Assembly: GCF_016907535.1 (NCBI RefSeq)
Contig: NZ_JAFBCF010000001.1
Coordinates: 186,001-250,000, forward strand
Direction: 5' to 3'
DNA from: Microlunatus panaciterrae
GTDB lineage: Bacteria > Actinomycetota > Actinomycetes > Propionibacteriales > Propionibacteriaceae
DNA: 64,000 nt
Below, piece by piece: positions 14,566-21,740 of this stretch. A program made the position numbers and the translations under genes. The notes under the pieces are model-generated. The model ran no database searches. It was not told the DNA's origin and saw only the letters and a list, made by a program, of their open reading frames with translations. Positions within the stretch are counted from its first letter, which is position 1. Each line of letters begins with the position of its first letter.

Positions 14566-15426
14566 CTACCCCACCGAGAGGATGGGCCCAATCCGGGCCA
14601 GCCAGCCGGCGGCCACCTGTCGCAGCGCCTCCGGGTCGGGCCCGGCGGAGATGATCTCGCGGCTGGCGCTGGGCAGCACCAGCGTGGTGGCGTCAGCGAA
14701 CACGTCCGCCAGGTCTTCCGGCCCAGCGCCCTGCGCGCCGAGCCCAGGCGCCAGGATCGAGCCGCCCAGCCGGCTGAAGTCGAAGGAGTTGCGACCGATG
14801 GTGGCGCCCACCACGAGCCCGACCGGGCCGATCGGCAGTCCACTGGCCGCATTGAGGGCACTCGCCTCGTCAATGATGGTCTGTGCGACCGTACGCCCTT
14901 CGGCGGTGACGGCGTACTGGAACTGGGGGCCCTCGGGGTTGCTGGTCAGCGCCAGCACGTAGACACCGCGTCCGTTGCTGACGGCCAGGTCGATGGCACC
15001 GCGGAGCGAACCGAACCCCAGATAGGGGCTGAGGGTGATGGCATCGGCTGCCAGCGGCGACCCGTCGGCGAGGTAGGCAGCCGCGTAGGCGTCCATGGTC
15101 GAGCCGATGTCACCGCGCTTCACGTCCAGCAGCGAGAGCGCCCCGTACGCACGGCAGTCGGCAAGCACGCGCTCCAGCACGGCGATACCGGCCGAGCCGT
15201 AGGCCTCGAAGAACGCCGACTGTGGCTTGAACACCGCGACCGTCTCCCCCAACGCCTCCACCAGCCCGCGCGCGCAGCGCTCCAGCCCGGAGACGTCGCG
15301 GGGCAGGTCCCAGCGGTCCAGCAGGGCGGGATGAGGGTCGATGCCGACACAGAGGGCGCCCCTGGCCCGGACCGTCTCGCCAAGCCGCTGGCCGTACGGG
15401 GTGCCGGTCGAGGTGGCGACAGTCAT
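14566..15426 (-). CDS. pyrF: Orotidine 5'-phosphate decarboxylase (type 2)
   Basis: Last step of UMP synthesis. The 286-residue length and the [15 protein letters not shown] start are typical of the actinobacterial type 2 enzyme. The catalytic Asp/Lys segment [17 protein letters not shown] is intact, and [10 protein letters not shown] is the phosphate-binding region. The ATG overlaps the pyrD stop (ATGA), and 66 bases separate the stop from the mihF start. Confidence 0.96.
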
Positions 15427-16537
15427 CGGACGATCTCCTTCTGGTTGACGGTGAGCTGGTTCAGCTCGCTGGTCAGGGCAGGGCCACGGAAGATGTATCC
15501 GGTGTAGACCTGCAGCAGGCTGGCCCCCGCGTCCAGCATCGCCTGGCCGTCGGCGGCGGTGAGGATCCCGCCGACCCCGATCACAGGCAGCGTGGTCTGG
15601 CTGGTGAGGTGGCGCACCACCGTACGGGCCCGGACGGTCAGCGGAGCGCCGGACAAGCCTCCCGACTCGTGACCGAGCATCCGATCCGACGGCGCCAACC
15701 CGTCCCGGCTCAGCGTCGTATTGGTGGCGATGAGTCCCTGGATCCCGCTGTCGTGGCAGACGGTCAGCACCTCGTCCAGGGCGGTCTCGGTCAGGTCGGG
15801 AGCGATCTTGACGAAGATCGGCACCGGACCGGCCGGGTCCGCTGCCGCCAGCAGCCGTGCCTCCGCGGTGAGGGCGCCGAGCAGCTCGGCCAGCGCCGCC
15901 TTGTCCTGCAGACTGCGCAGACCGGGCGTGTTCGGGCTGGACACGTTGACTGCGACATAGTCGGCCCGTGGTGCCAGCAGCCGCAGCGAGCTGAGATAGT
16001 CCGCGGTCGCCTCCGCCAGCGGCGTCGACTTGGTCTTGCCGATGGAGATGCCGACCGGGATGCCGACGGCGTTGTTCCCACGGCGGACCCCGGCGGTGTC
16101 GAGTCGGTCGGCCAGAGCCTGGGCTCCGTCATTGTTGAAACCCATCCGGTTGATGATCGCCCGGCTGTCGCGGAGGCGGAACAACCGCGGTCGCGGGTTG
16201 CCGGGCTGCGGCCGGGCGGTGACGGTGCCGAGCTCGGCGTGGGAGAAACCGAGCGCGCCCCACGCCTGGACTCCGATGCCGTTCTTGTCCATCCCGGCGG
16301 CCAGGCCGACCGGGCCGGGGAACCGGATGCCCGCGACCGTCACCCCGTCGGCCGGCCGACCCACCAGGCCGCCGACCACACGCAGGGCCGCCGGGTGACC
16401 CCCCAGCCGGGCGATCATCCTGAGGGTGCGTTCGTGCACCCGCTCGGCGTCACCTCCGGCGGTGCGGAACAGCGCCGGCCGGAGGACGGTGCGATAGCCG
16501 ACGTCGAGCATCCGGCTCCGACCGCTCATCGCTGCGG

Positions 16538-16541
<4 letters not shown>
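15423..16541 (-). CDS. pyrD: Dihydroorotate dehydrogenase (quinone, class 2)
   Basis: Oxidises dihydroorotate to orotate, passing electrons to membrane quinone. The N-terminal extension (about residues 1-55) with [12 protein letters not shown] is the membrane-associating part typical of class 2. The FMN barrel shows [10 protein letters not shown], the catalytic serine in [20 protein letters not shown] and VGGI, ending with [16 protein letters not shown]. The GTG at 16541 overlaps the carB stop; an ATG four codons later is an alternative. 372 residues. Confidence 0.96.
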
Positions 16542-19857
<3,316 letters not shown>

Positions 19858-19858
<1 letters not shown>

Positions 19859-21060
19859 CAGGCCCGCCCTCCTGTGGTCTCGGGATCGGAGCCCGGTGTC
19901 CTGCGGGCGGCCATCATGTCGATGAAGCGGTCGAACAGATAGCTCGCGTCGTGCGGACCGGCCGCCGCCTCCGGGTGGTACTGGACAGAGAACGCGACTA
20001 ACCGACCATCCGGTGCGGTGAGCTTGAGCCCCTCGACCACCTGGTCGTTGAGGCCGATGTGGCTGACCTCGGCGATGCCGTACGGCGTCTCGGTGGGCCG
20101 GTCGACCGGCGCGTCCACGGCGAAGCCGTGGTTGTGCGCGGTGATCTCCACCCGGCGGGTCTGCAGGTCCATCACCGGTTGGTTGATGCCGCGGTGGCCG
20201 TATCCCAGCTTGTAGGTGCCGAAGCCCAGGGCGCGGCCGAAGAGCTGGTTGCCGAAACAGATCCCGAAGTAGGGGATGCCGGCCTCCAGGATGCGAACCA
20301 GCAGCTGCACCTGCGCATCCGCCGCACCGGGGTCGCCGGGACCGTTGGAGAAGAAGACCCCATCCGGCTGCAACGCGGCGATCTGCTCGAAGGTGGAGTC
20401 CGCCGGCACCACATGCACCTCGATGCCGCGCTCGGCCATCCGGTACGGCGTCATGGTCTTGATCCCGAGGTCGACCGCGACCACCCGGAACCGGGGCCTG
20501 CTGCTGCCGTCGATCTCATGAGCGGGCACGACGTAGGGCTCGGCCACGCTGACCTGCGGGGCCAGGTGGGCGCCGACCATGCTGGGCGCCTCAAGCACCC
20601 GCTCGAGCAACGCGGCCGGGTCGGTCTCGGTGGTGGAGATGCCCACCCGCATCGCGCCACGCTCGCGCAGATGCCGGGTCAGGGCGCGGGTGTCCACCTC
20701 GCTGATGCCGACGATCCCCTGCGCCCGCAGCTCGTCCTCCAGGCTGCGCTTGGACCGCCAGTTGGACGGCACCCGGGCGGCGTCACGGACGACATAGCCG
20801 GCGACCCAGATCTTGCCCGACTCGTCATCCTCGTCGTTCCAGCCGGTGTTGCCGATGTGCGGCGCAGTGGCGACGACGACCTGGCGGTGGTAGCTCGGAT
20901 CGGTGAGCGTCTCCTGGTACCCCGACATCGCGGTGGCGAAGACCGCCTCACCGAAGGTCTCACCGCGCGCGCCGAAAGGTTTGCCGACGAAGGACCGCCC
21001 GTCCTCCAGAACGAGGAGAGCCCTTCCGGCTGGCGACTGCCGGGTGCCCGGGGTCACCAT
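19858..21060 (-). CDS. carA: Carbamoyl-phosphate synthase small chain
   Basis: Glutaminase subunit that feeds ammonia to CarB. The 400 residues have an N-terminal CPSase domain ([26 protein letters not shown]) and a class I glutamine amidotransferase domain with the nucleophile in [10 protein letters not shown] and the His/Glu pair in [12 protein letters not shown]. The ATG lies within the last codons of a 33-codon reading frame (ACATGGTGA overlap), so its translation may depend on that frame. I see no clear Shine-Dalgarno of its own. Upstream lies a PyrR-type RNA hairpin. Confidence 0.97.
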
Positions 21061-21155
21061 GTCTGCCTTGGGTCACTGTCGCAGGTGTGCCAGGTCTGGG
21101 CCTGACAGATCTGGCAACTGCGGTCGAGCTGGTGTCGGGCGCGCAAGTAGGGCAT
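21054..21155 (-). CDS. 33-residue Cys-rich leader ORF overlapping carA
   Basis: A short frame starts with ATG at 21155 after a strong Shine-Dalgarno (AGGAAAGGA, 5 bases away) and ends 7 bases inside carA. The peptide starts [12 protein letters not shown], continues with a CQIC pair, then WHTC, and ends RQTW. The CxxC...HxxC spacing resembles half a zinc ribbon, but it is short. Its ribosome-binding site forms the 3' strand of the PyrR-type hairpin, so it would be the regulated first cistron, passing control to carA by coupling. I do not recognise a family. It could be a leader peptide with no function of its own. Confidence 0.55.
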
Positions 21156-21160
21156 GACCG

Positions 21161-21193
21161 TCCTTTCCTGCCTCACTGGACAGGTCTTAAAGG
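21161..21193 (-). promoter_or_regulatory. PyrR-binding RNA hairpin in the carA leader
   Basis: Read on the minus strand this forms a lower stem CCTTT/AAAGG, a purine-rich AAGA bulge on the 5' side, an upper stem CCTG/CAGG, and the loop TCCAGTGAGG. That matches the architecture and the UCCAGAGAGG-type loop of known PyrR binding sites. The 3' side of the lower stem is part of the Shine-Dalgarno of the 33-codon ORF, so PyrR bound with UMP would block translation. Mycobacterial pyr genes are known to be controlled by PyrR in this translational way. No pyrR gene is in the window. Confidence 0.8.
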
Positions 21194-21210
21194 TTGGTTG
21201 AACGCCTTCG

Positions 21211-21216
21211 AGGCTA
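21211..21216 (-). promoter_or_regulatory. Candidate -10 box of the car/pyr operon
   Basis: TAGCCT on the minus strand would start transcription near 21204, about 10 bases before the PyrR hairpin. The leader would be roughly 50 nt. No good -35 is seen. Confidence 0.4.
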
Positions 21217-21248
21217 TCAGCCACCACCGAGTGCTCTCGAATCGACAG

Positions 21249-21254
21249 TAGTCT
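21249..21254 (+). promoter_or_regulatory. Leaderless-type -10 box for the first marR gene
   Basis: TAGTCT ends 6 bases before the ATG at 21261, with no Shine-Dalgarno. Confidence 0.5.
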
Positions 21255-21260
21255 GCGGAC

Positions 21261-21740
21261 ATGAACGCCGACCAGCTCGACGCCAGCCACCCGCCCGGAC
21301 AGTCCGCGCTGGCGACTGCCGAGCGCGAGATCACCCGGTTTCTGCGCCGGTCGCGGATGGCGTCGCAGCAGCTGGCGGCCAGCGTGCATCCCGACCTCGA
21401 CCCGGCCGGCTACGGGATCCTGGTCAACCTGTTCGAGCTGTCCGCAACGATGCCGCACGGCGTCCGCGCCTCCGATCTCGGTGCGGCGCAGGGCCTGCAC
21501 AAGTCGACCACCAGTCGCAACATCGCCGATCTCGAGGCTCTCGGGCTGATCCGGCGGGTCCCCGACCCCAGCGACGCGCGGGCGCGGCTGGTGCAGTTCA
21601 CCCCCAGCGGCGAGCATTCGCTGCGCCAGATCCGGGCGGCCCGCAGGCTGAAGCTGTCGCAGTCGCTCAGCCGGTGGCCGGCCGAGGACGTGGAGAACCT
21701 CTCCCGACTGCTGCGTCGGCTCGGCGACGACCTGCTCTAG
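21261..21740 (+). CDS. MarR family transcriptional regulator (first)
   Basis: A 159-residue winged-helix protein. The DNA-binding part shows RASDLGAAQGLHKSTTSRNIADLEALGLIRRVPDPSDARARLVQFTPSG (about residues 70-118), the classic MarR helix-turn-helix plus wing. Flanking helices would form the dimer interface. It is divergent from carA and 109 bp upstream of a second marR gene. No palindrome is visible at its own promoter, so its target is unknown; it might act on the neighbouring efflux operon. Confidence 0.9.
   Translation: MNADQLDASHPPGQSALATAEREITRFLRRSRMASQQLAASVHPDLDPAGYGILVNLFELSATMPHGVRASDLGAAQGLHKSTTSRNIADLEALGLIRRVPDPSDARARLVQFTPSGEHSLRQIRAARRLKLSQSLSRWPAEDVENLSRLLRRLGDDLL

Follow-up and report, generated by a model that had tools for sequence, protein, structure and literature searches.

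PyrR-dependent translational repression in Mycobacterium smegmatis was, judging from the title, the subject of a 2007 paper by Fields and Switzer, in which the site reportedly lies before the first gene, pyrR, as a 5'-terminal binding loop in the mRNA that overlaps the Shine-Dalgarno sequence. A published proposal is also said to have PyrR acting on the translation of a leader peptide in Thermus. The PyrR binding loop of translational sites consists of two stems, a purine-rich 5' bulge and a UCCNGNGAGG loop. In lactococci, attenuation by PyrR has been invoked for pyr operons that include carA and carB (PMC10986495). A study of M. tuberculosis ppe2 describes a B12 riboswitch 5' of a uORF that has an AUGA overlap and on which PPE2 production depends, mainly by termination-reinitiation (PMC11260477). 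Short leader genes at which ribosomes reinitiate have been put forward as a general booster of translation, with actinobacteria among the examples (PMC4833913). The pyrR motif is included in a comparison of RNA motifs, in a table whose actinobacterial groups, in the portion available, are Corynebacteriaceae and Mycobacteriaceae (PMC3766115).

The window, meaning the whole 64,000 nt stretch of DNA analysed here, belongs to a genome of 4,068,014 bases in a single contig. Propionibacteriaceae come first among the relatives identified through its CarA, and protein names point towards the Microlunatus/Friedmanniella group. It contains a predicted PyrR-type hairpin before the carA operon, with a short open reading frame between the two; the features are as follows.

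21211..21219, minus strand: extended -10-like element TGATAGCCT, in which TAGCCT is 21216-21211
21193-21162, minus strand: predicted PyrR-type binding hairpin (RF00515, 30.9 bits; model R2, E 2.4e-7)
21161..21167, minus strand: Shine-Dalgarno sequence GAAAGGA, sharing bases with the hairpin's 3' strand (from the sequence and complementarity to the 16S 3' end)
21155-21054, minus strand: leader ORF of 33 codons plus TGA (ATG 21155-21153, TGA 21056-21054)
21080..21122, minus strand: hairpin within the leader ORF (-21.9 kcal/mol, z -4.14)
21060-21054, minus strand: ATGGTGA overlap of the carA start (ATG 21060 or GTG 21057) with the leader stop (TGA 21056-21054)
19858..21060, minus strand: carA, carbamoyl-phosphate synthase small subunit (TIGR01368, 434 bits)
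16538..19858, minus strand: carB (NF003671, 1610 bits)
15423..16541, minus strand: pyrD, quinone-dependent dihydroorotate dehydrogenase (NF003652, 418 bits)
14566..15426, minus strand: pyrF, orotidine-5'-phosphate decarboxylase (TIGR02127, 256 bits)
14158-13574, minus strand: guanylate kinase gene, 3' of pyrF
About 3095110-3095748 of the contig (G000:C1; 1351-1989 of locus L002): pyrR, with pyrB next

With the M. smegmatis system as reported, this locus shares the protein family and a predicted 5'-end binding loop overlapping a Shine-Dalgarno sequence. It differs in that the site lies before carA rather than pyrR, with a leader ORF between, and in that the pyrR of this genome is unlinked to the hairpin and has no detected site of its own. 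The lactococcal case is similar in involving PyrR and in having carbamoyl-phosphate synthase genes among those repressed, but relies on terminator formation, whereas no terminator-like site was found in 21000-21330, before carA (PMC10986495). The ppe2 leader appears to be the closest experimental parallel that we have found: an RNA switch is likewise followed by a short ORF with a stop codon that overlaps the start of the following gene, and that gene depends on the short ORF, as is proposed for carA here (PMC11260477). The ppe2 switch is, however, a metabolite riboswitch and its overlap AUGA, as against a predicted protein-bound RNA and AUGGUGA in the window.

The lower stem of the hairpin pairs CCUUU (21193-21189) with AAAGG (21166-21162), and the upper stem pairs CCUGUC (21184-21179) with GGCAGG (21172-21167), all on the minus strand; the bulge, AAGA, is at 21188-21185, and the loop CAGUGA occupies 21178-21173 within UCCAGUGAGG (21180-21171). 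The structure thus has the two stems, purine-rich 5' bulge and UCCNGNGAGG loop of a PyrR binding loop. RNAfold reproduces it at -11.3 kcal/mol (z -1.65), but because 18 of 200 shuffles folded equally well, the fold alone is unremarkable. An Rfam covariance search, proposed as a check in the preliminary description, gave a divided answer. RF00515 aligned to the hairpin with 30.9 bits over model positions 5-36 of 115, the half representing the binding loop, at an E value of 0.021 that refers to 501 bases compared with all 4227 Rfam families, none of the others of which matched the hairpin. This falls below the gathering score of 54; at the gathering threshold, Rfam returned no match in the entire window, nor did RF00515 in the entire genome at E <= 0.001. 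The half-length alignment may explain these null results. RF00515 takes in attenuator leaders of the Bacillus type, and the part of it without a match here is presumably the attenuator, which we take translational sites to lack.

Decisive support for the predicted hairpin is instead comparative, and comes from a model (R2) of eight sites preceding pyrR in three other families of the window's order, from which sites before carA were excluded to avoid circularity. Searched against the 4.07 Mb genome, R2 returned the hairpin as its sole match at E <= 1. In the alignment from which R2 was made (A4), the bulge gap falls in the lower stem in two of the eight rows; two other alignments (A2 and A3) were discarded, as the bulge gap had been placed in the lower stem. 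A second model, R1, matched the window hairpin at E 3.8e-21, a value that is partly circular since the window and the carA sites went into its construction. When eleven sequences were aligned, 95.8% of cells were paired, compared with 48-61% when slid. The covariation support for the hairpin is modest: two pairs are altered on both sides, a number also reached by 166 of 500 shuffles. A 12-base pattern of the loop was uninformative, with 26 matches in the genome against 23 in the reversed control.

Sites of this kind are widespread in the window's order, in which R1 matched 142 of 196 genomes at E <= 0.01. We classified 141 loci, made up of 18 from the genus, 23 returned by the R1 search of the order and 100 chosen among the matches listed; the remaining listed matches come largely from one genus (g21) of family f2 and score about the same as those taken, and five weaker family matches (G023, G047, G056, G105 and G125) also lie outside the set. 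Directly behind the hairpin was pyrR at 84 of these loci and carA at 53. One carA, that of the window, and one pyrR (locus L300) were not direct, and two loci escaped the regular expression and were read by eye, L154 having a degenerate loop before carA and L291 a loop before pyrR. At L300, from a genome of the same family (G161), the hairpin lies about 160 bases 5' of pyrR, which has its own Shine-Dalgarno sequence and a start that the hairpin does not cover. Where a genome of the order had two matches, and both places were known (26 of 34), there was in all 26 one site with carA and one with pyrR, whilst in the other family genomes inspected the site went with carA in eight of nine; both tallies were classified by best protein match only, regardless of directness.

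Across the class, R2 matched 288 of 296 genomes at E <= 0.01. The 90 loci studied comprised 30 returned by the R2 search and 60 hand-picked among the matches listed; 16 of them are within the window's order and mostly repeat places from the set of 141. The site precedes pyrR at 88 and carA at two, both of the latter being in the window's order, and at all 74 loci outside that order the gene is pyrR. One of those counted as pyrR, L375, was scored by script as not direct, but by eye has an ATG right behind the hairpin. Hence, in this sample of 90 loci, carA sites appear to be confined to the window's order. A model of only eight sites fits 288 of the class genomes, whereas RF00515 misses the window hairpin at E <= 0.001, and a dedicated model for translational PyrR sites may be worthwhile.

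Within the genus, 20 genomes were searched, 19 of which have a true carA (the remaining one, G017, has a weak carA match only). A near-identical hairpin precedes carA in 17 of the 19 (R1 E <= 4.4e-18), and in 16 of these 17 carA follows directly, the window being the exception. The window's hairpin, as far as the ATG, is identical to those of G015 and G018, the CarA proteins of which are 78-79% identical to that of the window. The other two carA-bearing genomes, G014 and G013 (loci L154 and L155), have degenerate hairpins before carA and altered start codons; G014, an assembly of 610 contigs, also has an out-of-frame ATG behind its degenerate loop, which opens 13 codons, with an in-frame GTG four bases further on. 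These two sites look as if they are being lost, and both assemblies are fragmented. At the pyrR loci of the 20 genomes no PyrR site was detected, the best R1 score being 9.2 bits (L200), although every one of the 74 sites classified outside the order lies before pyrR; feedback in this genus seems to have been relocated to the carA operon.

The site in the window thus agrees with the carA-preceding sites of the genus and order in its hairpin, the position of the Shine-Dalgarno sequence and the target gene, but differs from them in the 33-codon leader that separates hairpin and gene. The preliminary description had presented a PyrR site before carA as exceptional, a view that did not survive the comparison (17 of 19 genus genomes and 53 of 141 order loci). 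It also knew of no description of the arrangement. PyrR-dependent translational repression has reportedly been published for M. smegmatis; the 33-codon leader, on the other hand, occurs in the window's genome only, among the genomes examined. In the openly licensed literature we found neither PyrR sites described before carA for this order nor any leader ORF gated by PyrR, though the reported Thermus proposal would further lessen the novelty of the latter. What is unusual is hence the leader, a PyrR site before carA being usual in the genus.

Conserved sequence upstream of the hairpin indicates where the transcript may begin. Among the 140 loci considered, 130 distinct upstream segments passed the regular expression; 126 of these contain TANNNT, compared with 10% in shuffles of the same segments, and in 110 of the 126 the last match is 21-25 nt 5' of the hairpin, whilst TGNTANNNT is present in 95 of the 130. 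A scan of the hairpin region for consensus promoters found none, the consensus being of the E. coli type. The conserved distance of the -10-like element would place the hairpin at the 5' end of the transcript, which we infer to start at around 21205-21203, about ten bases 5' of the hairpin. A start downstream of 21161 is unlikely, as TAGCCT stands at a position conserved among relatives.

A place for the hairpin on the transcript, 5' of a pyrimidine gene, would agree with this upstream element and with the genes downstream, which run in the order carA, carB, pyrD, pyrF and the guanylate kinase gene. The regulator itself is encoded elsewhere: a search for pyrR, suggested at the outset, found it at about 3.09 Mb beside pyrB. 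Its product passes the NCBIfam cut-offs for PyrR (NF003547, 271.9 bits against a cut-off of 230), and its structural matches are to solved PyrR proteins that include 1w30, from M. tuberculosis.

The hairpin overlaps the Shine-Dalgarno sequence of whichever ORF lies behind it, carA in the 16 relatives and the leader ORF in the window. The sequence GAAAGGA is complementary to part of the pattern at the 16S 3' end, which occurs once in the genome. The preliminary description agrees with these analyses in the PyrR-type site itself, the placement of the Shine-Dalgarno sequence in its 3' strand and the 33-codon ORF overlapping the start of carA, and the pyrR gene that it called for is present elsewhere in the genome.

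The 16 other genus genomes whose hairpin is intact lack the leader ORF, and it has no match in NCBIfam. Its position-specific GC content (0.53, 0.56 and 0.79) leans towards coding, but its codon score is -5, compared with +11.6 per 33 codons for carA and -18 to -21 for the wrong frames of carA, and at its base composition the chance of a frame this long remaining open is about 0.40. Length and codon usage are hence compatible with a chance frame, and the leader is present in the assembly as an unproven ORF of a single genome. The hairpin within it was at one stage thought to be special, an idea dropped when the corresponding variable stretch of three of the 16 relatives gave 49-nt folds stronger than that of the window; taken as a whole, the leader folds no better than ordinary sequence either (z -0.94).

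From the end of AAGG to a conserved CarA motif there are 143 bases in the window and 49-115 in the 16 intact relatives. The stretch is thus 28-94 bases longer in the window, although it is strongly variable in all, and shows no similarity apart from its first twelve or so bases and short words here and there. Our reading is that carA was moved away from its ancestral start by an insertion, or by an expansion accompanied by a frameshift, and that the leader ORF would have arisen as a by-product. No second copy of the leader stretch was found in the genome beyond matches of 24 bases, and it has no plasmid match. Short matches (19-34 bases, E <= 0.01) occur in 17 of 197 family genomes besides its own, where about two were expected; as the three inspected sit in differing sequence contexts, we attribute these to chance, the sequence being GC-rich.

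An in-frame TGA at 21075-21073 means that carA has no start nearer to the hairpin. As in termination-reinitiation pairs, the leader stop overlaps the carA start, which has a weak Shine-Dalgarno sequence of its own, AAGG at 21069-21066. Accessibility of this start is 0.41, against a median of 0.37 for 35 long ORFs that were picked mechanically from the window and have uncertain starts, and shifts little, to 0.44-0.48, when the leader is masked; a local hairpin at the start has -18.9 kcal/mol (z -2.14). Since accessibility is ordinary and masking has a small effect, dependence of carA on the leader through a locked start was not used in the argument. Given its own AAGG and this ordinary accessibility, carA may partly initiate independently.

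We consider it likely that the hairpin mediates translational repression of carA-carB-pyrD-pyrF by PyrR and UMP, relayed to carA through the coupled leader ORF. With plentiful UMP, PyrR would bind the hairpin and lock the Shine-Dalgarno sequence carried by its 3' strand; with scarce UMP, initiation would take place at the ATG behind the hairpin. The equivalent ATG in relatives is the predicted start of carA, but in the window, with its longer stretch, the ATG is out of the carA frame, and ribosomes would translate the 33-codon leader, terminate at ATGGTGA and start again at carA, such that repression is passed on by termination-reinitiation. The placing of the leader stop on the new carA start would thereby keep carA under the control of PyrR.

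A different account, in which the leader is incidental, carA initiates at 21060 or 21057 from its AAGG, and PyrR control is weakened or lost with the hairpin left as a relic, draws on the insignificant openness of the frame, its poor codon usage, carA's own AAGG and a carA start that is not unusually structured. We think it unlikely, as the leader stops exactly on the carA start and the identity of the hairpin through the ATG with G015 and G018, despite CarA proteins only 78-79% identical, implies that it is still selected or that the change is very young. An error of sequencing or assembly could produce the same picture if the true start of carA were at 21155 and reading continued from there in frame. 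There is one assembly, the equivalent ATG starts carA in relatives and the window's CarA, of 400 aa, is the only member of its protein-database cluster. Such an error is nonetheless very improbable: a single indel would have to fall within the roughly 20 bases from 21075-21073 to 21056-21054, where there is no run of four equal bases, and the resulting extension, containing Cys, His and Trp, is unlike the Pro, Ala and Ser-rich extensions of relatives.

A transcription attenuator of the Bacillus type, in which binding of PyrR promotes a terminator before carA, might be suggested by the strength of the hairpin at 21122-21080 and by the inclusion of such leaders in RF00515. That the match to this family is limited to the binding-loop half, that 21000-21330 lacks a terminator-like site and that 16 relatives have the carA start within a few bases of the hairpin, leaving no room for a terminator, together make attenuation almost certainly the wrong explanation. 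An extension of the coupled-leader model would have PyrR controlling CarAB only via translation of the short ORF, with ribosome speed or pausing providing a second signal to be integrated with UMP. Stronger folds than that of the leader hairpin in three of the 16 relatives lead us to rate this lower, as rather improbable; if true, the second signal would act on CarAB, the step common to pyrimidine and arginine synthesis.

The two-site genomes suggest that the window's order has placed a translational PyrR site before carA as well as before pyrR, and the window's genus appears to have the site before carA with none detected before pyrR. Feedback would then act on the shared carbamoyl-phosphate step, whilst pyrR-pyrB appears to be free of feedback through PyrR. 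The window may represent a natural experiment: in this one genome a conserved RNA switch has become separated from its gene by a leader ORF, which would open the dependence of carA on termination-reinitiation to direct testing.
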